Of a DNA stretch of 33,520 nucleotides, positions 1,237 through 16,182 are shown piece by piece. Position numbers and translations under genes: made by a program. The notes beneath the pieces are model-generated. The model saw only the letters and a list, made by a program, of their open reading frames with translations. It did no database searches and was not told the origin of the DNA. Source of the DNA: Verrucomicrobiota bacterium (GTDB taxonomy: Bacteria > Verrucomicrobiota > Verrucomicrobiia > Limisphaerales > SIBE01); contig JAIPJX010000044.1 of assembly GCA_021733945.1 (NCBI GenBank), positions 1 to 33,520 of the forward strand, read 5' to 3'. The stretch's first letter is position 1. Each line of letters begins with the position of its first letter.

Positions 1237-2049
1237 TCAACCGACCACCGACACCCGCAGATCTCTCAATGTGAACAATCCCTTGAAAGGCAGATGACGC
1301 ATCGGCCGGGCACCGGTGGTTCGCCGTGGACCGAATCGATCGCGAAATGTCTGAAAAACACCTTCAACAAAAACCCTCGCCCCCAGCACGGCCCCATCCT
1401 TCATGTAACGAATCTTCAACCTCAGAGCATCCGATTCACTCAACTCACCGTTTGTCCTCCAGATTTCCCGGACCTTTTCAACAGGAATGCCGGGCTTCCC
1501 TTCTGAACCATCACCAACCCCTTTCGTGAAGAGTGCCTCCCGGTATTTGCCCACGACCCGACGCCATTCCCCACCCTCCGCGCCCGTGAAACTTGCGATT
1601 CCGGCGATCGCCATGGCATTGCCCGCCGCCGCCTCGGCATAGCCGCAGAACCGGTAATCCGAGGGATCCAGCACCAATCCGGCCCGCACCGGATTCAGGT
1701 CGATGTAAGCCGCAACGGTTTGCACAACTTCGGGTCGATCCTCCACGAGCACGTTTCGGAAGCGCTCCGACCAAAGAGTACCGAACCGTTTGTGTTTCTT
1801 GTTATACCAGACGGTGAACGTCTGTTTGAGCTCTTTCATGAACACCGATACGTTATTCATGTGAAAATGGTTGGACATGAGACAGTAGGTCACGATCTCC
1901 ACACCGCAGAACGCCGCCTGGCGGCGCATCATCCCGCGGAGGGCATCCTTCTCCGGATCCCGCGCCAAAAGAAACTCGCCGGCAACGATACGAGAGATGC
2001 AGTGCTGGACGGAAGATGCCTGTGAGAGGGTAAACCTGGGTCTTCGCAT
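1237..2049 (-). CDS. REP-associated tyrosine transposase (RAYT, Y1/HUH family), internally deleted
   Basis: A 270-residue protein of the Y1_Tnp/RAYT family, single-strand nucleases that act on REP palindromes. The HUH motif is visible as YCLMSNHFH (residues 55-63) and the block AYIDLNPVRAGLV (about 114-126) holds the likely catalytic tyrosine Y115. KRFGTLWSERF (about 87-97) and a C-terminal DGAVLGARVFVEGVF block are typical of the long Verrucomicrobial-type RAYTs. In such proteins the HUH motif is normally followed by a linker of some 60-70 residues before the helix FMKELKQ. Here NHFH runs straight into MNNVSVFMKELKQ (junction near base 1860), so the gene looks like an in-frame internal deletion. 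Four GCCTGTCCC repeats flank it. Start ATG at 2049. Confidence 0.85.
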   Translation of the reverse strand: MRRPRFTLSQASSVQHCISRIVAGEFLLARDPEKDALRGMMRRQAAFCGVEIVTYCLMSNHFHMNNVSVFMKELKQTFTVWYNKKHKRFGTLWSERFRNVLVEDRPEVVQTVAAYIDLNPVRAGLVLDPSDYRFCGYAEAAAGNAMAIAGIASFTGAEGGEWRRVVGKYREALFTKGVGDGSEGKPGIPVEKVREIWRTNGELSESDALRLKIRYMKDGAVLGARVFVEGVFQTFRDRFGPRRTTGARPMRHLPFKGLFTLRDLRVSVVG

Positions 2050-2175: not shown

Positions 2176-2712
2176 ATGAAGATCGAAGCTCTGCACCTTC
2201 ACATGCGGGTAAGGCATCCCCAGTACGGCGTCGGCACCGTGAAAAAGATCCAGTCTCACGCCACCGAGATTCAGTTCGAGGAGGGGCTCAAAACCATCGC
2301 CCCGGAAACCAGCGGACTCGAACCAGCCGAACCCCAGGCCGCACTCACCGGTCTGGAGATTCCGCTGGACCAACTGATCGATCAGACGACTCAAGCAATC
2401 CTGAAATCGCTGGGTTTCGAGAAACCAGACGCGGTGGTGGAGGAACTCGGCGCACGATGGCACCGGGGTCGCGTCACGTTGCACCCTGCGGACCCATCGC
2501 TCCAAAGCAAGGAAGTGCCTCTGGAAACGTTTTTTCACAAGATCGTGATGATGCGCAACAATCTCCGGGTGCTGGAACAGAAGATCAACAGCAACCCGCA
2601 ACTGACGGACGCCGACAAAGTGGAACTGCAGCAGTATGTCTCGCGCTGCCATGGCTCCATGACGACCTTCAACATTCTCTTCAAGAACAAACACGACCAG
2701 TTTGGATCCTGA
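2176..2712 (+). CDS. conserved hypothetical protein with UvrD/PcrA-type Tudor-like N-terminus
   Basis: A soluble protein of 178 residues from the ATG at 2176 (GGAAGAG lies 8-14 bases upstream). An in-frame upstream ATG at 2110 falls inside the REP-like repeat and is less likely. Residues 9-40, with MRVRHPQYGVGTVKKI followed by a short strand and EGLKTI, look like the Tudor/SH3-like fold at the C-terminus of UvrD/PcrA helicases (RVRHPKFGxGTV). The rest is helical, with a C-terminal half containing FFHKIVMMRNNLRVLEQKIN. I recognise no enzyme motif. It stops 2 bases before cutA and is probably co-transcribed with it. Function unknown; a nucleic-acid or polymerase contact is only a guess from the N-terminal fold. 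Confidence 0.7.
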   Translation: MKIEALHLHMRVRHPQYGVGTVKKIQSHATEIQFEEGLKTIAPETSGLEPAEPQAALTGLEIPLDQLIDQTTQAILKSLGFEKPDAVVEELGARWHRGRVTLHPADPSLQSKEVPLETFFHKIVMMRNNLRVLEQKINSNPQLTDADKVELQQYVSRCHGSMTTFNILFKNKHDQFGS

Positions 2713-2714
2713 TC

Positions 2715-3056
2715 ATGACCGTTCGTTCCAAGCACGTGGTTGTAATGGTTACAGCCCCGAATCTCCGGACCGCACGGAAACTCGCAGGGAAGGCGCTTGA
2801 GGCCCGGGTGGCCGCATGCGCCAATCTGGTGCCGGGGATAGAGTCCCATTATTGGTGGCAGAAGAAATTGGAGCGGAGTTCCGAGGTATTGATCGTCTTC
2901 AAAACACGCTCCGGGCTGGCGAAGCGATTGGAACGGGTGGTTCTTGAGCATCATCCCTACGACACACCTGAAGTCATCTTCCTCCCCGTGCAGGGCGGGA
3001 ATCAACAGTATCTGAACTGGATCGATTCGAGCACGGAAGCCCCGCCGCCGGCTTGA
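2715..3056 (+). CDS. cutA: CutA1 divalent-cation tolerance protein
   Basis: A 113-residue protein of the CutA1 family, small trimeric proteins with a PII-like ferredoxin fold linked to copper and divalent-cation tolerance, though their exact role is unsettled. The hallmarks are visible: VMVTAPNLRTARKLA at the start, ARVAACANLVPGIESHYWWQ (about 30-49), then HPYDTPEVIFLPVQGGNQQYLNWI near the end. Length is normal for the family. The ATG at 2715 follows the stop of the upstream gene by 2 bases. The DHPS-like gene begins 19 bases after its stop, which suggests a three-gene transcript. Confidence 0.93.
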   Translation: MTVRSKHVVVMVTAPNLRTARKLAGKALEARVAACANLVPGIESHYWWQKKLERSSEVLIVFKTRSGLAKRLERVVLEHHPYDTPEVIFLPVQGGNQQYLNWIDSSTEAPPPA

Positions 3057-3075: not shown

Positions 3076-4005
3076 ATGCTACTTCTGGAGCACCTCTCCG
3101 ATCTGTATCTCAATTACGGGGACAGTCTCGTCCACCCGGTGCGCGGGTTCGCCCTTGGCGGTGAGTCTTTCGATTTTCAAAAAGGCCCCACGCTCATGGG
3201 AGTCATCAATCTGTCCCCGGATTCGTGGTATCGTGAAAGCGTCTGTCTCAGCCCGGACCGAGCGATCGAACGAGGCATCGTGTTGCATTCGCAGGGGGCG
3301 CGAATTTTGGATCTGGGTGCGGAATCGACCCTGGCCCACGCGTCGCTGGCTGATCAGACCGAGCAGATCCAGAAACTCACGCCCGTGATTCAGGGGCTGC
3401 GTCGCGCCGGCATCCCTGTTTCGGTCGAAACCTACCTGGCTCCGGTGGCCCGCGCCTGCCTGCAGGCGGGGGCGAACATTCTAAACCTGACAGGATTGGC
3501 ACAGATCGAGGAAATCTATCCGATGGCGGCTGAGACCGGTGCAGGCATTATTCTGTGCTATGTCCAGGGGGAAACAGCGCGGGCCGTCAACGACTTCGAA
3601 TTTCCGACCGACCCGATCGGGACCCTGTATGAGTATTTTGCAAGGGAATGCGAGCGAGCGAACCGATTCGGCGTCCACAAATTGATCCTCGACCCGGGGC
3701 TGGGGTTTTATTATCGAAACCTGACAGACGGCCCCACCCGGGTCCGATACCAGATGGACGCTTTTCTCAACTCGTTCCGACTGCGTCCGCTCGGTTTTCC
3801 CATCTGCAACGCCCTGCCCCACGCATTTGAGTTTTTTGGGGAGGAAGTCAGGAGTGCGGAACCGTTTTTCGCCAGCCTGGCGGCTTTGGGAGGCACCCAC
3901 CTGTTTCGCACGCACGAGGTATCGAGGGTAAAAGCCGTGCTCGACACACTGGACGCCTACGAACCACCTGGGCGGCAGAGAAAAACACCCTCCTCGCCCG
4001 ACTGA
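3076..4005 (+). CDS. dihydropteroate synthase-like pterin-binding protein, divergent
   Basis: A 309-residue TIM-barrel-type protein related to dihydropteroate synthase (FolP), which joins pterin pyrophosphate and p-aminobenzoate in folate synthesis. Family blocks are recognisable: MGVINLSPDSW (41-51, cf. NVTPDSF), ARILDLGAEST (75-85, cf. IDVGGESTRPG), VSVETY (115-120), NILNLTG (134-140), LILDPGLGF (203-211) and LFRTHEV (276-282, cf. RVHDV). The pterin-side Asp206, Asn137, Arg278 and His280 appear kept. The SRK motif, which carries a key lysine in true FolP, is replaced by CNALPH (about 244-249), and RPG of loop 2 is replaced by LAHA. A standard folP role is therefore doubtful. Its last 49 bases overlap the methyltransferase gene on the other strand. 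Confidence 0.75.
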   Translation: MLLLEHLSDLYLNYGDSLVHPVRGFALGGESFDFQKGPTLMGVINLSPDSWYRESVCLSPDRAIERGIVLHSQGARILDLGAESTLAHASLADQTEQIQKLTPVIQGLRRAGIPVSVETYLAPVARACLQAGANILNLTGLAQIEEIYPMAAETGAGIILCYVQGETARAVNDFEFPTDPIGTLYEYFARECERANRFGVHKLILDPGLGFYYRNLTDGPTRVRYQMDAFLNSFRLRPLGFPICNALPHAFEFFGEEVRSAEPFFASLAALGGTHLFRTHEVSRVKAVLDTLDAYEPPGRQRKTPSSPD

Positions 4006-5036
4006 ACCACCCATTCCCCGACAAGCTCGAGATGCGATTCCCGAAGGAGACACCGCAAACCCTCGGGAGTGTATCGATAGGAAAAGAACAGACGCCATCT
4101 CTCCCCACTGGGAAAAAGGAATTCCTCTCCTTCAATTTCCAGTCGGCGCGGTTGGTTGAGGGTGAACCGGGCAACGATTCGTCGGAGATCCGGGACGGCC
4201 GGAGATACCTCGACAACGAAGTCCAAATCTCCGTCGGATGCTTCAAAGCCGAGATCCAACAGGAAAGTCATCAGCCAGCGGCGGGTCTCAAGATTATCGT
4301 ATTGGGCACGGATCCGGTGTAATCCGTTGCACACATCCTGTTCCGTCGCGAGATTTGCGCTCAACAGGAGAAGGTCCGCTGGCCCAAGAACGCCATGAAA
4401 CAGACCCATGGCCTGCTCCGGTTCCAGATTCGGCAGCATTCCGAAAAAGCTGATCACACGCGTTGATGCCGCAGAAGGATCCACCCCCAACAATTCGCCG
4501 AGGTTCCCGATCCCACCCAGATCACATAACGCGGGAATACACGGCAAGGGAGGCACTTCGTTCCGCGCCCGTTCGTATGCCGTGAGAACCAGGGGCAAAC
4601 TGGAGTCACTCGGGAAATAGTCGACCGGGCGCCCCGTTGACCGAAGCCGCCGAAGCATGAGGATATCCTTTTCGCCACTTCCGCACCCGAGGCCATGCCA
4701 TTCAACCGGAGACCGGGGTGACAGCAGCTCGTTGACAGCGCGTGCCGCCGCGTCGTAGATCACCCGGCATTCGGGATCGTTGATCCACGGAGAGTGCTTT
4801 TGATGCACCGCCAACCACCGGCTTGCCTGCTTGATCGAATCATAATGAAGCCGTCCCTTGATAAAGCGGTCCCGAATGGAACCGAGAAGATCAGGTCCCA
4901 ACCGGGAAGGAAACAGCGAGGGATGAACTTTCAGGCCGACAAGGGGTGGCATAGAGTTGAAATGTTTGAGCGGATCGCCCGGTTCCGTGTCATGGACTTG
5001 AGACAAACGCCCGTTCGAACACAGAACCGATCGCAT
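3957..5036 (-). CDS. SAM-dependent methyltransferase, EgtD/Methyltransf_33-like
   Basis: About 359 residues from an ATG at 5036. A TTG at 5045 or an ATG at 4952 are possible alternatives, and none has a clear ribosome site. The Rossmann-type SAM motif is GLGCGSGEKD (about 115-124), followed by VDYFPSDSSLPLVLTAYERA (about 138-157) as the acidic strand-2 region. The later strand VISFFGMLPNLEPEQAMGLF resembles the 'F.GS.IGN' part of histidine-specific methyltransferases such as EgtD. The C-terminus has FFSYRYTPEGLRCLL. I infer a small-molecule methyltransferase of the EgtD-like group. No egtB partner is visible and the substrate is unknown. The 3' end overlaps the DHPS-like gene by 49 bp, convergently; the 5' end faces the UVR gene across about 36 bp. 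Confidence 0.6.
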   Translation of the reverse strand: MRSVLCSNGRLSQVHDTEPGDPLKHFNSMPPLVGLKVHPSLFPSRLGPDLLGSIRDRFIKGRLHYDSIKQASRWLAVHQKHSPWINDPECRVIYDAAARAVNELLSPRSPVEWHGLGCGSGEKDILMLRRLRSTGRPVDYFPSDSSLPLVLTAYERARNEVPPLPCIPALCDLGGIGNLGELLGVDPSAASTRVISFFGMLPNLEPEQAMGLFHGVLGPADLLLLSANLATEQDVCNGLHRIRAQYDNLETRRWLMTFLLDLGFEASDGDLDFVVEVSPAVPDLRRIVARFTLNQPRRLEIEGEEFLFPSGERWRLFFSYRYTPEGLRCLLRESHLELVGEWVVQSGEEGVFLCRPGGS

Positions 5037-5072
5037 TGACTTCAAAACGATCCATGGACATAGTGCCTTAGC

Positions 5073-5856: not shown

Positions 5857-6282
5857 TCACGACTGGGGAAACACCTGATAAAGCAGCAGGTAAATCACCA
5901 CTCCGGTCACTGAAACATACATCCAGATCGGCCACGTCCAACGGGCGATCTTCCGATGCCCCTTGAAGTCGGTTTTGACGGCGCGCCAGAGAGTTGTCAG
6001 GACCAGCGGCACCACCGCGACTGCCAGCACGGTGTGCGTGAGCAGGATTCCCAGATAAACTGGCCTGAACCAGGGCGGATTCTGGAAAACGGTTCGCCCG
6101 GCAAAATAGTGGTAAACGAGGTAACAAACCAGGAACACGGCCGAGGTGATCGTGGCGGCGACCATGCAGTTCCGATGAGCGATGCGGTTGTTGCGCCGGA
6201 TGAACCAGTAACCCAGGGCGAGGAACACGGCACTCAGGGAATTCAGGCAGGCGTTTATTGCGGGGAGATCTGAAAGATTCAT
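5857..6282 (-). CDS. DUF420 membrane protein (CtaM/YozB-like), oxidase-assembly type
   Basis: 141 residues with four predicted transmembrane helices. DUF420-family features are visible: LNSLSAVFLALGYWFIRRN, AHRNCMVAATITSAVFLVCY, then ILLTHTVLAVAVVPLVLTTL and a final segment WTWPIWMYVSVTGVVIYLLL. The conserved histidines in AHRN, YHYF and LTHT are typical. Members of this family (for example CtaM in Staphylococcus) are needed for maturation of aa3-type heme-copper oxidases. The ATG overlaps the stop of the SCO gene (ATGA), so the two are translationally coupled. It is the last gene of the oxidase locus. A 6-bp hairpin sits at its 3' end, without a T-run. Confidence 0.85.
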   Translation of the reverse strand: MNLSDLPAINACLNSLSAVFLALGYWFIRRNNRIAHRNCMVAATITSAVFLVCYLVYHYFAGRTVFQNPPWFRPVYLGILLTHTVLAVAVVPLVLTTLWRAVKTDFKGHRKIARWTWPIWMYVSVTGVVIYLLLYQVFPQS

Positions 6283-6917
6283 AATCCGCTCTCCATCTGC
6301 AGTTTTCGAACCGCCTCCACTGTCTTTTGTTCCGCCTGGGGCTCCATGCCCTCAATCGCGGCGCGCAGGCGTCCCTGCTGATCCACGACCACAAACAAGG
6401 TGCTATGGATAAAGAGATCGTTGGGGTCCTCTTGTTGTCCCGCCTCCTTTTGAATCGCCGTGAGCTTCAATCCGTCCACTGCCAACCGGGCAATCTCCAC
6501 CTTGGAACCCGTTAGCAACCACCATTCGTCAGGATCCACATCGAACTTTTTGCCGTATCGTTCCAGCACTTCGGGAGTATCAAAACCGGGATCGGTGGTC
6601 AGGGAAATAAACATCACGGAACCATCTCCATCCAAGGCATCCTGCAAAGCTCGCATGTTCCGGGTCATCTGAGGACACGGCCCGGCGCACCGCGTGAAGA
6701 TGATGTCCGCGATCCAGATCTTTCCACGGAGGTCCTCCATGGTAACAACCTTGTTAATCTGATTCGTGAGGGTGAAATCAGCTACCTTGGAATAGATCGG
6801 CAGGGCGGTGGACTCGACCTCGATCTGCTGCACGCGCCACGCCAGGAAGATCGCTCCCAAAGTCAGGGCGATGAGTACCAGGCCAACCCAAACACCCCGA
6901 AAAGCGGATCTAGCCAT
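6279..6917 (-). CDS. SCO1/SenC family copper chaperone
   Basis: A 212-residue thioredoxin-like protein anchored by one N-terminal membrane helix (about residues 9-27). It has the copper-binding CxxxCP motif at C77-C81 (TRCAGPCPQMTRNM) and the third ligand His171 in LFIHSTLFVVV, as expected for SCO proteins that deliver copper to the CuA centre of oxidase subunit II. VADFTLTNQ (46-54) is the usual start of the fold. It lies between coxB and the DUF420 gene, and the 99 bases before it contain no gene. Length is normal. Start ATG at 6917. Confidence 0.95.
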   Translation of the reverse strand: MARSAFRGVWVGLVLIALTLGAIFLAWRVQQIEVESTALPIYSKVADFTLTNQINKVVTMEDLRGKIWIADIIFTRCAGPCPQMTRNMRALQDALDGDGSVMFISLTTDPGFDTPEVLERYGKKFDVDPDEWWLLTGSKVEIARLAVDGLKLTAIQKEAGQQEDPNDLFIHSTLFVVVDQQGRLRAAIEGMEPQAEQKTVEAVRKLQMESGL

Positions 6918-7016
6918 GCGATTGAACCGACAGATCGAAGGTAAAAATGCGGCAAGGCAATGTTTCAGAACCGCTCAACACGGGCCGAACGCCACCCGAC
7001 TGAACCGAGTCAACGA

Positions 7017-7799
7017 TCACTCGAAGCTCGTGGCTGTGGTTCCCCCGCCGCCCTGCGAGGCTTCCCAGGCGTCGAATTCGGCCTGGCTGAGAACCGTCAG
7101 GAATCCGCCCGACATGGTGTAGTGACCGGTACCGCAGAGCTGCGCACAGTTGATCTGATAACGCCCTTCCTTGATCGGTTTAAACCAGAGCGGGATGTTC
7201 ATTCCAGGAATGGCATCCTGACAGACCCGAAGCGCGATCACCTTGAACGAGTGGATGACATCCATGGAACTCAAGTGAACGACCACCGGCTTGTTGACCA
7301 CGACTTTGAGATCGTTATAGACCTTGATGTCGTCCTTGCCGTTCTCGTCGTCGGGCACATCGCCCCACTTGTTGTCGAGGCTGATTCGTTTGGCATCCTG
7401 CCGTCCGAACACTCCATCCTTGCCGGGGTACCGGGCGTTCCAGCCAAACTGTTGGGCGATCACCCGCATGACCGTCGATTCATTTTCGGCGGGGACTTTA
7501 TCAACCATCTGGGACCAGAGCGGAATGGCCAGACCGAAGAGAAGAACCATTTCCACCACCGCCACAGCGACCTCAATGTAGCTGGAAGCGTGGCTCTTGA
7601 CGCCTTGGTAGCTCGCCTTCGGATTCTTCGATTTGCGGAACCTCACCAACACATAACCGAAAAACAGGATCCACCCGACAAACAGCGCAGCCATCAGCCA
7701 GTGCATCACCACGACCAGGTAGTCCACCTTGTGCCCGTGCTCGGAAGCCAGAATCGGCATCCCCATCACCGCTCGCCAAAAATCAACAAAACCATCCAT
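7017..7799 (-). CDS. coxB: cytochrome c oxidase subunit II
   Basis: 260 residues from the ATG at 7799; a TTG two codons upstream would overlap the preceding gene. Two transmembrane helices (about 28-50 and 72-95) precede a periplasmic cupredoxin domain. The CuA site is complete: CAQLCGTGHYTM with C218, C222, H226 and M229, and the upstream histidine in DVIHSFKV. QFGWNARYPG is the aromatic region that accepts electrons from cytochrome c. There is no fused cytochrome c domain after CuA, so the oxidase needs a separate electron donor. It is unusual for subunit II to come after I, III and IV in the operon. The loop VFGRQDAKRISLDNKWGDVP before the CuA strands is longer than in mitochondrial-type proteins. 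Confidence 0.96.
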   Translation of the reverse strand: MDGFVDFWRAVMGMPILASEHGHKVDYLVVVMHWLMAALFVGWILFFGYVLVRFRKSKNPKASYQGVKSHASSYIEVAVAVVEMVLLFGLAIPLWSQMVDKVPAENESTVMRVIAQQFGWNARYPGKDGVFGRQDAKRISLDNKWGDVPDDENGKDDIKVYNDLKVVVNKPVVVHLSSMDVIHSFKVIALRVCQDAIPGMNIPLWFKPIKEGRYQINCAQLCGTGHYTMSGGFLTVLSQAEFDAWEASQGGGGTTATSFE

Positions 7800-7801
7800 G
7801 A

Positions 7802-8068
7802 TCAAACCTTGCTAGTTGGGTCGGTATCGGCTGACGAAGAATCCATCTCCGCCACAGCCGCCGAACGTTTTCCAAGAAACACAAAAAAAGCGCCAATGCC
7901 GCTCAAGACACAAGCGACAATCACAATCATCGAGAACACACCCCACCGTGCGCCCTGCCCGAGCGCCGAATTGGGATCACCGAAACAGACGGAACACGCC
8001 AGCGAGGAAGTCCGACCCAGCGCCAGCAGACAGGCCACCAAACCAAGTTTTCCCAGAACCCGTGTCAT
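7802..8068 (-). CDS. small Cys-containing membrane protein of the oxidase locus
   Basis: 88 residues: a signal peptide (about 1-24), then the dicysteine C25-S-V-C28-FGDP, a short linker GQGARWGVF, and one transmembrane helix (about 44-66) ending in GKR. The C-terminal tail is acidic. The Cys immediately after the signal peptide could be lipidated (SLAC) or could bind metal together with C28. Its start overlaps the stop of the preceding gene (ATGA) and its stop lies 2 bases before coxB, so it is firmly inside the operon. I do not recognise a named family. A role in oxidase assembly or metal delivery is inferred from position only. Confidence 0.8.
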   Translation of the reverse strand: MTRVLGKLGLVACLLALGRTSSLACSVCFGDPNSALGQGARWGVFSMIVIVACVLSGIGAFFVFLGKRSAAVAEMDSSSADTDPTSKV

Positions 8069-8274
8069 AGGTAACCCACGGTCTTGAGTTTCTTGAGAAA
8101 ATAACGCCCGTAAACAATCAGCCCGACACCGGAAGCGACGGACAGGGCCGCCATGGTCAGATTGGTGGGAGAGGCGCCTTCCGAGAGATACTCGCGCAAG
8201 GCCCAGGCACCGAACCCGAACGACAAAAGGGTCGAGGCAGTGATGAAAACGATATGGAATGCCTTGAGTGACAT
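8065..8274 (-). CDS. small two-helix membrane protein of the oxidase locus
   Basis: 69 residues from the ATG at 8274, which lies 4 bases after the coxD stop. Longer upstream in-frame readings would overlap coxD. It has two predicted helices (about residues 5-22 FHIVFITASTLLSFGFGAWA and 34-56) with a basic C-terminus (RYFLKKLKTVGYL). No enzyme motif is present. It overlaps the next gene by ATGA. Small membrane proteins of this kind are often found next to caa3/aa3 oxidase genes and may be accessory subunits, but I cannot assign a specific family. Confidence 0.75.
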   Translation of the reverse strand: MSLKAFHIVFITASTLLSFGFGAWALREYLSEGASPTNLTMAALSVASGVGLIVYGRYFLKKLKTVGYL

Positions 8275-8278
8275 GGGA

Positions 8279-8653
8279 TCAATGCGACGCGGGAGGGTGC
8301 GCCGCTGGCGCATGCTGAGCCGCCGCAATGCTCGCCCCCAGATAGACCGTTCCTGGAGGGGCTTGTCCATGCGCCCAGACCGTCAGATACATGAGCACAC
8401 TGAAAAAGAACGCCGTGGAACCCAGAATTCCATAAATCATTTTGCGCTCAGACATCAGATGCATGAAATATCCGGCCACAAGGAAGGCCTTCACACTGGC
8501 TATGAGCATCGCGAGCGCCACCGTCATGGCCACGCTGGGAATATCGATGTAGTAGGCTCCGACCGTGACGGCGGTTCCCACAATCAACGCGCCGAAAACC
8601 AACAGGTAACGGCGGACCGATGCCTTAATTTCGTGAGGAGAATGTCCACTCAT
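8279..8653 (-). CDS. coxD: cytochrome c oxidase subunit IV-type protein
   Basis: 124 residues with three predicted transmembrane helices. The pattern MSGHSPHEIKASVRRYLLVF, then ALAMLIASVKAFLVAGYFMH and a third helix FFFSVLMYLTVWAHG, is that of the prokaryotic subunit IV family (COX4_pro/CyoD-like), in which the lysine and the FMHL element of the second helix are conserved. The C-terminal tail is rich in Ala, Pro and His (APAAHPPASH), an unusual ending that could bind metal. It lies 14 bases after coxC and 4 bases before the next small gene. Confidence 0.85.
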   Translation of the reverse strand: MSGHSPHEIKASVRRYLLVFGALIVGTAVTVGAYYIDIPSVAMTVALAMLIASVKAFLVAGYFMHLMSERKMIYGILGSTAFFFSVLMYLTVWAHGQAPPGTVYLGASIAAAQHAPAAHPPASH

Positions 8654-8667
8654 AAGTCTTTAGATAA

Positions 8668-9438
8668 TTACAGCAAATAAAGAACTGGGAAGAGAAAAAT
8701 CCAAACCAAGTCAACAAAATGCCAGAACAAGCCCGAAATCTCGATCCGGTTCGTGAACCGCTCGGGATCCGTCTTCCACATCCGACTGCCCGGACCCCAA
8801 AGATAAGCAATCACGGCAGCCCCGCCAATGACGTGCAGTGCGTGCAGCGCGGTCAGCGTGAAATAAATGGCCAGGTAGGTATTGTGCCAGGGACCATAAT
8901 TTTCCATCTTGCGGATCTGGGCCGCCTCAATCCGCATCTCCTCCCGGTGCTCGCCGTGATGATCGCCGGCGGTCCCCTCCCCTTCGTGAAACACCGCAAC
9001 GTGTTTGAGGGTGATGTGAGTATCGCTTTTTTCGACCAGATGCCCGTCAGCAACCATTCCGTCCGTCATGATCACCTCGTAGTGGGTGAACTTGTCGTAA
9101 TATTCGTAGGACTTGATGCAGACGAACAGCATCGCACAAACCAGGGTAATGCCCTGAAACATTTTGAACCGGTTAAACTGGTTGAGCTTCAGGGACGCCC
9201 ACGCCATCACAACCGTGATACTTGAGGTAATCAGCACGAGTGTATTGACCGTGCCGATGGGAATATTGAGCAACCCATGGGGCCACGCACCGGGTGCCGC
9301 CCCAATCCTCAGGAGGATATAGGATGAGAACAGCGCGCCGAAGAGCATGACTTCGGAGGCCAGGAACAGCCAGATTCCGAGCTTCGCGTTATACAGACCC
9401 GTATCCGGCCGGGGTTGAACTACGTAAGGAATTTCCAT
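8668..9438 (-). CDS. coxC: cytochrome c oxidase subunit III with a large soluble insertion
   Basis: 256 residues. The N-terminus (NAKLGIWLFLASEVMLFGAL) and the C-terminal half (LTALHALHVIGG, then EISGLFWHFVDLVWIFLFPV) are diagnostic of subunit III of the heme-copper oxidases. Five helices are predicted, the short bacterial form. Between the helix ending SYEYYDKF and the helix YLAIYFTLTALHALHV there is an extra hydrophilic stretch of about 65 residues (roughly 118-182), rich in charged residues and His (GDHHGEHREEMR). This is not present in the usual subunit III and should face the periplasm or cytoplasm as one loop. It lies between coxA and coxD with short gaps (29 and 14 bases). Confidence 0.95.
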   Translation of the reverse strand: MEIPYVVQPRPDTGLYNAKLGIWLFLASEVMLFGALFSSYILLRIGAAPGAWPHGLLNIPIGTVNTLVLITSSITVVMAWASLKLNQFNRFKMFQGITLVCAMLFVCIKSYEYYDKFTHYEVIMTDGMVADGHLVEKSDTHITLKHVAVFHEGEGTAGDHHGEHREEMRIEAAQIRKMENYGPWHNTYLAIYFTLTALHALHVIGGAAVIAYLWGPGSRMWKTDPERFTNRIEISGLFWHFVDLVWIFLFPVLYLL

Positions 9439-9467
9439 GAATGAAAAGGGTTGTTTCAGTTAAAGCC

Positions 9468-11279
9468 TCAGCGCATCGGTTCGTTCTGGGGCGCAAAATC
9501 CTTGGATTGCCCGGGAGCACTGTACTCGTAGGGTCCGTGATAGACCTTCATAGCCGTCGCAAAATTTCCGTGCGGCGGCGGCGTCGGGGTCTGCCATTCC
9601 AGCGTCGTCGCATCCCACGGATTATCGGACGTGACCTTCTTGCCATGGGTAATGCTCCAGAAAAAATTGATGATGAATGGAATCTGCGAGACACCGAGCA
9701 GCCAGGCGGCATGGGAGATGCCGACGTTCATCCCGATCATCGTGTCACTCAATCCGCCAATCGCATCGTTTCCGACCTTCGCGAGCGAGTAGTTCACTCC
9801 GCCGTCAACCATGCGGCGCAGCATGCCCGCCATGCCCTGGGCGAACATTGGCTGGAAGATGAGATTCATGAACACCAGCGAGGTCCAAAAATGCACCTTC
9901 CCCCAAAACTCGCTCATAAAACGGCCTGTGGCCTTGGGATACCAGTAGTAAATCCCCGCCATCAATCCAAAAATGGTTCCAGGCGCCACCACGTAATGGA
10001 AATGCGCGATCACATAATACGTGTCGTGCAGGTGAATATCGCTGTAGTTCAAACCGAGCGGCAATCCCGTCAACCCCCCGATTCCGAACATCGGTAGAAA
10101 TCCGAGCGCGAAGAGCATCGGCGTGTTGATTCGAATGGACCCACCCCACAGGGAGATCAACAGACAGGTGAGGATCACCACGGACGGAATTGAAATGATC
10201 ATCGTGGTGGTCTGGAAGAACGTACTGATGGCCGTGCCCATGCCGGTCAAATACATGTGATGGGCCCATACGATGAACGAGAGGAACCCGATCGCGAGGG
10301 ACGCGTAAACCAGCGACTTGTAACCCCAGAGCGGTTTGCGGGTGTTGTTCGCGACGACCTCAGCCACAATACCCAACGCCGGAAGGATCAACACGTAGAC
10401 CTCCGGATGCCCAAGAAACCAAAACAGATGCTGCCAAAGCAGCGGACTTCCTCCGCCGCTCACATTGGCGAGGTTTCCGCCAATTGCGAGGCCAGTGGGA
10501 AGAAAGAAACTCGTGTGCGCCACCTTGTCCATCAACTGCATGACCGCGGCAGCTTCCAGGGGAGGAAACGCGAGAAGGAGCAGGAACGCCGTTACAAACT
10601 GGGCCCAGACGAAAAACGGCAACCGCATCCAGGTCATGCCCGGCGCACGCAACTGAATGATGGTGGCGATGAAATTGACAGCCCCCAGGAGCGAGGAAGT
10701 AATCAGGAACACCATTCCGAGAATCCAGAAGGTCTGACCATCGGTCGGAATCGACGTGGCCAGCGGGGAGTAGGAGGTCCAACCGGCCTGGGCGGCACCG
10801 CCCGGAATAAAGAAACTGACCATCATGACCACGCCACCAACCACAAAGCATTGGTAACTGACCATGTTGATGCGTGGGAACGCCATATCGACCGCCCCAA
10901 TCTGAAGCGGCACCACATAATTCCCGAAAGCCGCAAAGGCCAGCGGCACGACGGCCAAAAACACCATGATGGTTCCGTGCATTGCCCCGAACGAATTGTA
11001 AAGATCGGAGGACATCACGCCCCCCGAAGCCACATCCCCGAGGACCTTCTCAAGAATCGGTCCCATAACCGGAATCGGATGCCCCGGATAGGCGATCTGC
11101 CACCGCATCATCATCATCAAGAAGAAACCAAACAGCAGGAAAATCAGCGATGTAACGCCGTACTGGATTCCGATGACCTTGTGGTCGGTGGAGAAAACGT
11201 AGGCGCGCCAGAACCCCGGCTCTTCATGGTGAGCGTCGTGGGCCTCCGTATGGCCTGTCTGGGATGTCGTTGACTGCAT
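9468..11279 (-). CDS. coxA: cytochrome c oxidase subunit I
   Basis: 603 residues with twelve or more helices; this is the catalytic subunit with heme a and the heme a3-CuB centre. Visible ligands and motifs include GAMHGTIMVF (heme a His), LGHPEVYVLILPALG (CuB His with the cross-linked Tyr and the HPE glutamate), WAHHMYLTGM (CuB His pair) and HDTYYVIAHFHYVV (heme a3 and heme a His). The HPEVY form with its preceding helix indicates an A-type oxidase. A His-rich soluble N-terminus (HTEAHDAHHEE) precedes the first helix. The 131 bases upstream, before ctaB, have no gene and could hold a separate promoter. Confidence 0.98.
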   Translation of the reverse strand: MQSTTSQTGHTEAHDAHHEEPGFWRAYVFSTDHKVIGIQYGVTSLIFLLFGFFLMMMMRWQIAYPGHPIPVMGPILEKVLGDVASGGVMSSDLYNSFGAMHGTIMVFLAVVPLAFAAFGNYVVPLQIGAVDMAFPRINMVSYQCFVVGGVVMMVSFFIPGGAAQAGWTSYSPLATSIPTDGQTFWILGMVFLITSSLLGAVNFIATIIQLRAPGMTWMRLPFFVWAQFVTAFLLLLAFPPLEAAAVMQLMDKVAHTSFFLPTGLAIGGNLANVSGGGSPLLWQHLFWFLGHPEVYVLILPALGIVAEVVANNTRKPLWGYKSLVYASLAIGFLSFIVWAHHMYLTGMGTAISTFFQTTTMIISIPSVVILTCLLISLWGGSIRINTPMLFALGFLPMFGIGGLTGLPLGLNYSDIHLHDTYYVIAHFHYVVAPGTIFGLMAGIYYWYPKATGRFMSEFWGKVHFWTSLVFMNLIFQPMFAQGMAGMLRRMVDGGVNYSLAKVGNDAIGGLSDTMIGMNVGISHAAWLLGVSQIPFIINFFWSITHGKKVTSDNPWDATTLEWQTPTPPPHGNFATAMKVYHGPYEYSAPGQSKDFAPQNEPMR

Positions 11280-11410
11280 GATGATTTTGATTTCTGTTCG
11301 TTCGATTCAACGCCACGGCGCACTTGCATCCGCCCTCAGCATTTCGGCGCGTTAGTAAACTTTGAGCAAGGACCTCTGTCAACGGCAGAACCAGAGACTC
11401 GGTCATTTTT

Positions 11411-12313
11411 TTATCCGATTTTGTCAAAAACCATTACTCCCAAAAGGATCGGGAGGTAGATGATGGACATAAAAAAGAGCTGCCTGGCCCTGCAATGGGT
11501 CAGATCCTGCCAAAACCGAAACGCGAAGCCCAGGAATGCCGCGCCCATAAGGAGCGAAACGACCAGGTACAGCGTCCCGGATAAACCCAGGAGAAACGGT
11601 CCGACGCTCACGGCCAAAAGTCCGACACTGTGCACGAGCGCCTGGCGTCCCGTGCGTATTCCCGAGGGATCGACCACGGGAAGCATTCTGAATCCCGCAT
11701 TCGCGTACTCCTCGCGATAAATCCAGGCGATCGCGAAAAAATGAGGCAACTGCCAGAGAAACAGGATTACAAACAGAGCCCACCCCCCCGCCGACACTTC
11801 ACCCCGGGCCGCCGTCCATCCCATCAACGGAGGCAAGCCCCCAGCCAGGGCTCCCACCACCGTGTTCAAGGGGCTGATGCGTTTCAACGGCGTGTAAACA
11901 AAGAGATAACTCAGCAGGGTAATCAGGCCCAGCAGGCAGGTAATGAGGTTCACAGCCAGAGCCAGCCAAATCAAACCGACCCCGGCGCAAACCAGTCCAA
12001 AGAACCGCGCCGACTCCGGTGATAAGCGCCCTGAGGGCAATGGCCGGGATTCCGTGCGCACCATTCGCAAATCGTGATCCTTTTCGATCACCTGGTTCAG
12101 CGCGGCCGACCCGGCGGCCACCAGCGCCGTGCCAACGATGGCACTGAACATCAACACCAGGTTTGGCGAACCGGGGGACCCCATGTAAAAGCCCACCAGC
12201 GTTGTAAAAAGAACCAACGCCGTCAATCGGGCCTTCGCGAGCTCAAGGAATATCCCAATGCCCAGTCGGTCCCCCGTGTGCGCGGCGGTGAGCGGAGGAA
12301 CCGATGCTTTCAT
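11411..12313 (-). CDS. ctaB: protoheme IX farnesyltransferase (heme O synthase)
   Basis: 300 residues from the ATG at 12313. A longer in-frame reading upstream overlaps ctaA and is rejected. It is a UbiA-type prenyltransferase with about eight helices. The first Asp motif is NQVIEKDHDLRMVRTESRPL (about 93-112; NxxxDxxxD-like), followed by PSGRLS, and the second acidic region lies at IYREEYANAGFRMLP (about 213-227), after the family-typical WQLPHFFAIAW. The enzyme farnesylates heme B to heme O, the first step toward heme A. It is 8 bases downstream of ctaA, whose product makes heme A from heme O. Confidence 0.95.
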   Translation of the reverse strand: MKASVPPLTAAHTGDRLGIGIFLELAKARLTALVLFTTLVGFYMGSPGSPNLVLMFSAIVGTALVAAGSAALNQVIEKDHDLRMVRTESRPLPSGRLSPESARFFGLVCAGVGLIWLALAVNLITCLLGLITLLSYLFVYTPLKRISPLNTVVGALAGGLPPLMGWTAARGEVSAGGWALFVILFLWQLPHFFAIAWIYREEYANAGFRMLPVVDPSGIRTGRQALVHSVGLLAVSVGPFLLGLSGTLYLVVSLLMGAAFLGFAFRFWQDLTHCRARQLFFMSIIYLPILLGVMVFDKIG

Positions 12314-12321
12314 CTTCGGGA

Positions 12322-13389
12322 TCACAGGGTGTTGGCTGCCAGGTTCTCTCCATTGATCTTCACTCCGACGTTCCGGACGAATGGCGCCCGGGATGAACCG
12401 ATTCGGGCCAAAACACCGGACCGGGCGGAGAGCACACCGGTCAGGGACGCAGCGACGAGACCGGTCGCCCCCAGCAACACGTGGACCGTGGCCACATCGG
12501 CAGCTTTGTTGCTCCAGACGGTCCAGGCACCAAAACCGGCCTGGATCACCATCAGAACCAGCAATCCCATCGCATATCGCCGGACGGGCGCGGTGCCCAT
12601 GACGGACCGTCGGGTGCGCCACGCCAGAGCGACCACCACGGAGAGCGCCGTCAGAGCTCCGAGACGATGGGTCATGTGCAGGTGGATATGGGAGGCCCGG
12701 ATCGGGTTGGGCTCCAGGGGATCGATGCGTTCGCGATTAATTTTTTCGAGAAACACCTCGTCTGTCGAGGGCCAAAGCTGCCCGTAGGCGAGTGGAAAAT
12801 CAGGGACCGCCAACCCCGCATGCTGATGCCTCATCGAGGCTCCCAATACGAGTTGTGTGAAGATCAATCCGGTCGCAATCCAAATGAGGGACACCGTGGC
12901 ACCAGGCACGGACCAACCGGTAAACCGAACAGGTTCCCAGGCGCGCGATGTCACCAGTGCGATGAAACACAGCAGGACCAGAAAAACATGGGCAAGCGCC
13001 GCGTGAAAAATTCCCAACTGATCAATCATCAATTTGACCCGCAGACCTCCCAGAATGCCCTGCAACACGACTGCCAGGAACGCCGCCACCCCCAGCCATC
13101 GCAGCCAGCGTCGGTCTTCGGTGAGCCAGAGCCAGATCGCCAGAATGGTGGTCAACAACCCGACAAACGAAGCGAGCAACCGATGGGAATGCTCGTAAAG
13201 GATGCCACCGATCCATTGGGACGGTGGGAACAGAAACATGTTGTATCCGTAGGTGGTCGGCCAATCGGGCACGGCCATTCCGGCCTCATGACTGGTGACC
13301 AGGCCACCAAGGCCGATCAGGAACCACGTCGCAACCGCTGAGAAGATTGCGAAACGATTCAACCAACGGTTCTTCCTGAATTCACCCAT
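12322..13389 (-). CDS. ctaA: heme A synthase (COX15/CtaA)
   Basis: About 355 residues from the ATG at 13389; a TTG 18 codons earlier is possible but gives a basic, Cys-containing extension without support. Eight helices are predicted in two four-helix halves. The histidine sites are present: YEHSHRLLASFVG and GIFHAALAHVFLV in the first half, HIHLHMTHRLGALTAL and VHVLLGATGL in the second. The start GGLVTSHEAGMAVPDWPTTY and the repeat HAGLAVPDFPLAYGQLWP are family signatures. The enzyme oxidises the methyl group of heme O to the formyl of heme A. It sits between the cupredoxin-like gene and ctaB. Confidence 0.95.
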   Translation of the reverse strand: MGEFRKNRWLNRFAIFSAVATWFLIGLGGLVTSHEAGMAVPDWPTTYGYNMFLFPPSQWIGGILYEHSHRLLASFVGLLTTILAIWLWLTEDRRWLRWLGVAAFLAVVLQGILGGLRVKLMIDQLGIFHAALAHVFLVLLCFIALVTSRAWEPVRFTGWSVPGATVSLIWIATGLIFTQLVLGASMRHQHAGLAVPDFPLAYGQLWPSTDEVFLEKINRERIDPLEPNPIRASHIHLHMTHRLGALTALSVVVALAWRTRRSVMGTAPVRRYAMGLLVLMVIQAGFGAWTVWSNKAADVATVHVLLGATGLVAASLTGVLSARSGVLARIGSSRAPFVRNVGVKINGENLAANTL

Positions 13390-13463
13390 TCGGAGACTAA
13401 CGAAATGCCGCTGCAACAATCTGCCACAGCGGCATACGAACAATTGACTTCGGACTCAACGCT

Positions 13464-14786: not shown

Positions 14787-16004
14787 TTAAATGAGGTGCC
14801 CGAGTTTTTTCCGTTTCGTTGTTAAGTATTTCCGGTTGTGCTTGTTAGGCTTAATCCGAATCGGCACCTGCTCCACAACCTCCAGTCCGTAACCTTCCAA
14901 TCCGACAATCTTTTTCGGATTATTGGTCAAAAGCCGGATCGTTCGAATGCCCAGATCGGCCAGAATCTGAGCTCCCACACCGTACTCCCGGAGATCCATC
15001 GGGTAACCGAGTTTCAAATTGGCCTGCACCGTGTCGTATCCCTGCTCCTGGAGTTTGTACGCCCGGATCTTGGATTCCAACCCGATCCCCCGCCCTTCCT
15101 GGCGCATGTAGACGACCACACCACGTCCCTCCTTCGCGATCAGACGCATGGTTTCATCAAGCTGCGATCCGCAGTCGCATCGTTTCGAGCCAAACACGTC
15201 GCCGGTCAGACATTCGCTGTGCACCCGCACCAGAACATCCCGCCCCTGCTCCACATCCCCTTTCACCAGTGCCAGATGCTGTTGCCCGTCAATCTTGGAC
15301 CGGTAAAGGTGCAACATAAAATCGCCGTGATCGGTCGGCATTTTCACGACTTCGATCCGCTCCACCAACTTTTCGCGGGTGCGCCGGAATTCGATGAGCG
15401 ATTCGATGGTGCCGATCTTCAGCTTAAATCGTTTGGCAAACCGCTGCATTTCGGGCAACCGCGCCATCGACCCATCCTCGCTCATGATCTCGCAGATCAC
15501 AGCCACCGGACGTCTCCCGGCCAGACGTGCGAGGTCCACGGCCGCTTCGGTATGCCCGGCCCGCTGAAGCACCCCGCCCGGCTTGCATCGAAGCGGGAAA
15601 ACATGTCCCGGCTGGACCAAATCACTCGGAACAGCCGTCGGATCCGCCAGGGTGCGAAGGGTCCGGGCCCGATCAGCGGCGCTGATGCCGGTGGTAATGC
15701 CAGTGGCGGAATCGACACTCACCTGAAAATCAGTCCGAAACGAATCCCGGTTGTGGACCACCATCTGCTCGATTCCAAGTTGCCTCAGTCGTTCGGAAGT
15801 CGTTGGAGCGCAGATCAATCCCCTTCCGTGCTTGGCCATGAAATTAATCGCCTCCGGGGTAGCCGCCTCGGCAGCCATGATCAGGTCCCCTTCGTTCTCA
15901 CGGTCGGCGTCATCGACCAGGATCACCATCTTGCATTTACCGACATCTTCCAGGATCGATTCGATTGAATCAAAGCGGGGCTTCTTGGCGGCAGCTGGCC
16001 TCAT
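14787..16004 (-). CDS. ribBA: bifunctional riboflavin protein RibBA (DHBP synthase / GTP cyclohydrolase II)
   Basis: 405 residues from the ATG at 16004; a GTG one codon earlier is the longer reading. The N-terminal half is 3,4-dihydroxy-2-butanone 4-phosphate synthase: [17 protein letters not shown] (about 30-46) with the acidic metal ligands, and [13 protein letters not shown] with the catalytic His. The C-terminal half is GTP cyclohydrolase [22 protein letters not shown] (zinc cysteines in [15 protein letters not shown]), then [11 protein letters not shown] and [13 protein letters not shown]. Both halves look complete. The lysine-rich tail ([19 protein letters not shown]) is common. I saw no FMN riboswitch in the 175 bases upstream. 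Confidence 0.96.
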
Positions 16005-16182
16005 CACAATAAAAGGAAAAGTCCCAATCGTTGGTCACGACCGCGACGTGGTAAAATCAAATCGAGTCAAAGTGAGGCAAGCCCGAGGCCGGAAGGGTGA
16101 TCAGCGCAATTCGTTTCATCTCATTTCCTTACGTGCTGGGGCCTGAGGCCGTCAAGGCAATTGACCGCATTCCTGGCAATTG

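Follow-up and report, generated by a model that had tools for sequence, protein, structure and literature searches.

Whether a relative of dihydropteroate synthase (DHPS) that lacks the SRK motif still serves folate synthesis, or has been recruited for another pterin reaction, is the question raised by a 33,520-nucleotide stretch of DNA of a Verrucomicrobiota bacterium from the order Limisphaerales (hereafter the window). A preliminary description, made from the sequence alone, had proposed that the encoded protein binds a pterin and joins it to a partner other than p-aminobenzoate (pABA), or that it acts like methyltetrahydrofolate methyltransferases (MeTr).

The DHPS-like protein matches the Pfam Pterin_bind profile (E = 3.2e-32) and, against TIGR01496, the NCBIfam equivalog model for DHPS, it reaches 118.4 bits, under the cut-off of 162.6. 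The best matches in a sequence search of the PDB were all DHPS. An AF2 model built with 42 sequences (mean pLDDT 88.5, pTM 0.88) superposes on DHPS structures with Z of 27-30 and 2.0-2.8 Å over 240-266 residues, the top match being 3tyz (Z 30.4, 2.4 Å, 266 residues), and all 50 of the 50 matches listed in two fold searches were DHPS, no MeTr structure being among them. Comparison of the Symploca and Moorena genes revealed differences mainly at third codon positions (25/8/81 across the three positions), which indicates purifying selection on an intact gene. A decayed folP or pseudogene was ruled out by the unbroken ORF, the invariant motifs and the dominance of third-position changes, and a phage origin by viral contigs that hold no relative of the gene.

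Residue conservation was computed over 42 DHPS-like sequences from Limisphaerales and Cyanobacteriota, and the gene and its motifs are located in the window as follows.

3076..4005, plus strand: DHPS-like protein, an ORF of 309 aa uninterrupted by stops (Pterin_bind match, AF2 fold, own clade).
3208..3243, plus strand: altered loop 1, NLSPDSWYRESV, residues 45-56 (NVTPDSFSDGG in FolP); N45, S47, S50 and WYRESV invariant (n = 42).
3316..3342, plus strand: altered loop 2, GAESTLAHA, residues 81-89, without RPG; G81, A82, E83 and L86 invariant, S84 and T85 nearly so (n = 42).
3427..3435, plus strand: ETY, residues 118-120, replacing the D-T of the FolP pterin site (42/42 and alignment).
3484..3495, plus strand: NLTG, residues 137-140, N137 being the pterin-site Asn; N137 and T139 in 42/42.
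3691..3723, plus strand: DPGLGFYYRNL, residues 206-216, with pterin-site D206 and F211 kept, then a clade-specific insertion of ~8-10 residues (conservation, alignment).
3805..3828, plus strand: CNALPHAF, residues 244-251, at the SRK region, followed by a ~5-residue deletion; C244, A246-L247-P248-H249 and F251 invariant (n = 42).
3907..3921, plus strand: RTHEV, residues 278-282, with the pyrophosphate-binding R and H kept (42/42).

The ORF and the 42-sequence conservation agree with the motif assignment of the preliminary description: the pterin-pocket blocks are kept (N45-LSPDSW, D79-LGAEST, LD206PGLGF and R278-T-H280), the SRK region reads CNALPH and loop 2 has lost RPG. N137, D206, N45, R278 and H280 are invariant in the 42 sequences; from their counterparts in FolP structures, we take N137, D206 and F211 to form the pterin site and N45, R278 and H280 the pyrophosphate site. 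What is shared with FolP (TIGR01496; E. coli, B. anthracis, Thermus), namely the TIM barrel (Z ~30), the loop 1 N, the pterin-site N and D and the pyrophosphate R and H, implies use of a pterin. Unlike FolP, the protein has neither the SRK lysine nor RPG, carries E118 at the D position of the DT motif in 42/42 sequences and an invariant SWYRESV in loop 1, and reads STLA instead of STRP in loop 2 (LAHA at the RPG position, with L86 invariant). The clade is further distinguished from FolP by a ~25-residue N-terminal extension, the insertion past DPGxGF, the ~5-residue deletion past the SRK position and the score under the family cut-off. As the same residues are invariant in 42 relatives, these alterations are due neither to chance nor to sequencing error. 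Judged from the sequences, the pABA side of the pocket is rebuilt alike in Verrucomicrobiota and Cyanobacteriota, and the pterin and pyrophosphate sites are kept.

In FolP, the SRK lysine touches both the pterin and pABA. None of the alignments tried places a lysine there, and the 42 sequences have no conserved lysine column near this site in the sequence. The occupant of the lysine position is read at the level of sequence from alignments that disagree by up to six residues: an alignment anchored on LGxP places P248-H249-A250 at the S-R-K of FolP, and a gapless HMM alignment places C244 at the lysine. Because this contact includes the pterin in FolP, loss of the lysine could impair catalysis.

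Phylogenetic trees were built from the DHPS-like proteins, canonical FolP and, to represent MeTr enzymes, the pterin domains of MetH. In the maximum-likelihood tree (LG+C20), the DHPS-like paralogs form one clade apart from FolP (99/95, 98% of bootstrap trees), which is retained when Roseibium and FolP from other phyla are added (98/100), and the MetH pterin domains lie far from both on a 100/100 branch. The distinct clade that the preliminary description had named as support for a new function was thus recovered, and the DHPS-like proteins make up a new DHPS subfamily whose second substrate has probably changed.

A scan of genome contigs returned 388 relatives of the protein, 80 of which were listed. 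The gene occurs in 83 of 97 genomes of Limisphaerales relatives, including that of the window, and six further carriers belong to a different family of the class that includes Limisphaerales (f65, Methylacidiphilaceae-like, the name being inferred). Cyanobacterial carriers among the listed relatives include Moorena, Symploca, Brasilonema, Zarconia and Prochloron; across the phylum the distribution is sporadic (3 of 244 sampled genomes). A full-length relative, 41.5% identical, is carried by a plasmid of Roseibium porphyridii. Four public MAG records labelled Akkermansia muciniphila or Klebsiella pneumoniae (L059, L068, L076 and L103) carry a Limisphaerales-type gene, and these organism names therefore look wrong.

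Canonical FolP was detected alongside the DHPS-like protein in all 11 cyanobacteria (9/9 and 2/2), in all six Methylacidiphilaceae-like genomes, several of them single-contig, and in 75 of the 83 Limisphaerales carriers. The genome of the window is no exception: besides MetH, it holds a canonical folP fragment at a contig edge (G000:C161:5-397, with GASRKSFIG and RTHDV), which is the separate folP that the preliminary description had suggested looking for. In the other eight Limisphaerales carriers, canonical folP was undetected, five showing MetH and the paralog only and three the paralog only; as these are MAGs of 56-97% completeness, absence of folP is not established. Taken with its divergent sequence, this coexistence indicates that the DHPS-like protein is probably not the folate enzyme.

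On the opposite strand, the DHPS-like gene faces a putative methyltransferase.

3957..4952, minus strand: EgtD-like (Methyltransf_33) SAM methyltransferase, convergent with the DHPS-like gene (PF10017, E = 2.2e-12).

The EgtD-like ORF starts at 5045 (TTG), and its homology begins near 4949. The same convergent pair is found in ~23 distinct Limisphaerales loci, mostly less than 500 bp apart, and the methyltransferase gene is also present in eight cyanobacterial DHPS-like clusters. Outside Limisphaerales, it occurs in 8 of 8 carriers of the DHPS-like gene vs 0 of 13 non-carriers; inside the order, such strict co-occurrence is absent (49 of 83 carriers vs 6 of 14 non-carriers). In EgtD, the histidine N-alpha-methyltransferase, residue E282 holds the imidazole. 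Its EgtD-like relative shares the Methyltransf_33 family, the S284 position and the N of the GNF-like motif, but aligns an F with E282, and the cut-off of the TIGR03438 model (290.9 bits) is missed by the protein of the window (29 bits) as by the EgtD-like proteins in general (29-74 bits). This replacement and these scores suggest that the substrate is probably not histidine; a non-histidine amino acid or the pterin conjugate itself would be a plausible methyl acceptor.

Searches for a pathway-specific SDR in Limisphaerales gave generic SDR scores (~150-195 bits), none over the TmpR cut-off. The sole HPPK gene of one Limisphaerales genome adjoins the DHPS-like gene on the same contig (G019:C136:1081-3281). 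In the window, a CutA-like ORF, recognized by eye (2700-3056, plus strand), stops 20 bp short of the DHPS-like gene, and a similar ORF occupies the same position in several Limisphaerales loci; given this spacing and the recurring arrangement, both may share a transcript. Just upstream lies an ORF resembling a REP-associated tyrosine transposase (1240-2049, minus strand, by eye). The remainder includes ordinary content, such as a cytochrome c oxidase/SCO-type block (5857-13443, minus strand, by eye) and a RibBA gene (14787-16007, minus strand), and, farther along, genes for MreB, MreC, a penicillin-binding protein, RodA/FtsW and RNase E/G.

In cyanobacteria, nearly every locus places the DHPS-like gene no more than a few kb from genes for the EgtD-like protein, a NUDIX hydrolase, HPPK and an SDR; some loci add FolB and PTPS, and the gene order varies. 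In one locus (G541:C9), NUDIX, HPPK, SDR, EgtD-like, FolB and PTPS genes are all found with the DHPS-like gene inside ~7 kb. The cluster SDR scores 375.7 against the TmpR pteridine/dihydrofolate reductase model (cut-off 325). A second HPPK in these clusters had been considered and was dropped, the cluster HPPK being the sole one found in most cyanobacterial carrier genomes; folate synthesis and a new branch would thus share the pyrophosphate of 6-hydroxymethyl-dihydropterin (DHPPP). The HPPK loci of three non-carrier genomes from the cyanobacterial sample contain none of the cluster neighbours. Some cyanobacterial clusters also encode a MurL-like protein and a thioredoxin-reductase-like flavoprotein in which a CxxC pair is missing (L095:8909-10396 and L095:10383-11381).

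In Methylacidiphilaceae-like genomes, a TmpR-like SDR gene stands between the EgtD-like gene, which is transcribed divergently from it, and the gene for riboflavin synthase (L165, L166, L168; G361, G104, G168), and the DHPS-like gene lies 11-34 kb from this locus. The genome of Methylacidiphilum infernorum was reported to encode FolP and no FolA (Methylacidiphilum infernorum genome, PMC2474590), and the SDR of this family is thus a candidate dihydrofolate reductase in its place. The SDR is consequently a weaker mark of a separate pathway, since it could act as dihydrofolate reductase where FolA is missing, and this is the main caveat to such a reading. On the Roseibium plasmid, folB, the DHPS-like gene and a FolM-type SDR gene stand in a row (L206:11507-13663, NZ_CP120864.1), and the SDR carries TGAGKRLG, which fits TGX3RXG, a motif described as characteristic of PTR1 and FolM (PMC1971073). 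This set directly follows hydroxyproline/proline-racemase catabolic genes.

From these observations, we infer a substrate, a reaction, a product and an order of steps. As in folate synthesis, GTP-derived dihydroneopterin would be converted to 6-hydroxymethyl-dihydropterin and, by HPPK, to DHPPP. The DHPS-like enzyme would hold DHPPP through N137, D206 and F211 in the pterin pocket and N45, R278 and H280 in the pyrophosphate site, release pyrophosphate and join the pterin methylene to a nucleophile X instead of pABA, yielding dihydropterin-CH2-X. X would fit the rebuilt pocket, formed by the WYRE of loop 1, L86, the PHA stretch and the inserted YYxNLxD...R...Q segment. Reduction of the conjugate to its tetrahydro form would follow, by a pteridine reductase whose gene is nearby in other lineages, and the EgtD-like enzyme would act as an N-methyltransferase on the conjugate or on the partner, for which a non-histidine amino acid is plausible. 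Such a conjugation scheme best fits the kept pterin and pyrophosphate sites, the rebuilt second pocket and the nearby HPPK, FolB, NUDIX, reductase and methyltransferase genes. We thus hold it probable that the protein is a diverged DHPS paralog working in a second, non-folate pterin branch, in which DHPPP is joined to a nucleophile other than pABA. The pterin site with another partner put forward in the preliminary description is, in this respect, supported by the separate folP, the distinct clade and the pterin-pathway clusters found elsewhere, the change of partner itself being probable. The lost lysine, the D-to-E exchange at the pterin site, the missing tie to the EgtD-like gene in Limisphaerales, the failure of the searches in that order to find a pathway-specific SDR, the possible role of the SDR as dihydrofolate reductase and the eight MAGs without a detected folP all speak against this second branch.

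The same lysine and D-to-E changes might instead point to an enzyme which conjugates nothing, but hydrolyses DHPPP or retains a dihydropterin, as a hydrolase, a regulator or a pterin-binding protein steering flux at the HPPK branch point. A precedent is FolP2 of Mycobacterium leprae, a FolP paralog which did not complement folP, in a 2007 comparative study of folate genes that asked whether the duplicate folP or folK genes of some organisms serve different reactions (PMC1971073). We find such a role unlikely, as the rebuilt pocket is full of invariant charged and aromatic residues, which suggest a specific second ligand, and a reductase and a methyltransferase are also encoded in the clusters. 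To a comparable degree, it seems improbable that the protein is a second, unusual DHPS still forming dihydropteroate from pABA, the role of the lysine being taken by a residue such as H249, either as a redundant or as a sulfonamide-tolerant isozyme. The DHPS fold is the same, the pyrophosphate site is kept, canonical folP went undetected in the eight MAGs, and the Sul enzymes are DHPS paralogs which keep the reaction. However, neither of the two loops nor the SRK region retains its FolP form, and the replacements are fixed throughout the 42 sequences; complete genomes retain canonical FolP alongside, and the linkage is to an EgtD-like methyltransferase, not to pab genes. Mycobacterial FolP2 and Sul1-Sul4 are likewise DHPS-fold paralogs coexisting with FolP; yet Sul enzymes keep the pABA reaction, unlike the function proposed here, the Sul1-Sul4 models give 47-66 bits vs cut-offs of 475-600, and the FolP2 structure 2vp8 matches at just 61 bits.

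That the protein is a methyl-transferring enzyme in the manner of MetH or AcsE, with a reduced pterin or folate as its ligand, appears very improbable. MeTr enzymes are pterin-binding TIM barrels not known to carry SRK, MetH and AcsE belong to the same Pterin_bind superfamily, and the neighbouring gene encodes a SAM-type methyltransferase. MetH and AcsE, however, are not known to have the pyrophosphate-site R and H, which are kept here (R278, H280) together with N45; the structures listed in the fold searches were all DHPS, the protein groups beside FolP and far from MetH, and no gene for a corrinoid protein was noticed adjoining the DHPS-like gene. The methyltransferase-like action considered in the preliminary description is accordingly not supported. 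The archaeal DHPS-like family TIGR00284 (H4MPT-type) also shares the Pterin_bind superfamily, and its model gives 10.5 bits vs a cut-off of 256.65.

A literature search covering few subscription papers and no bioRxiv preprints found no published account of the DHPS-like clade or its clusters. With a normal folP retained and frequent linkage to pterin genes, the DHPS-like gene probably makes an undescribed pterin compound. We would give about even chances to the broader proposal that Verrucomicrobiota, some Cyanobacteriota and some Alphaproteobacteria have in common an undescribed pathway whose product, a pterin cofactor or metabolite, would combine 6-hydroxymethyl-dihydropterin with a partner other than pABA, perhaps an N-methylated amino acid, giving a folate analogue from a re-tooled DHPS. 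To our knowledge, conjugation of pterins through the 6-methylene has been described only for folates and methanopterin-type cofactors, and a further branch, if true, would add a class of cofactor or metabolite. Hundreds of genes annotated as dihydropteroate synthase in these phyla, judging from the relatives in the scan, would then be misnamed, and the family would offer a natural experiment on how the target of sulfa drugs can switch its second substrate.
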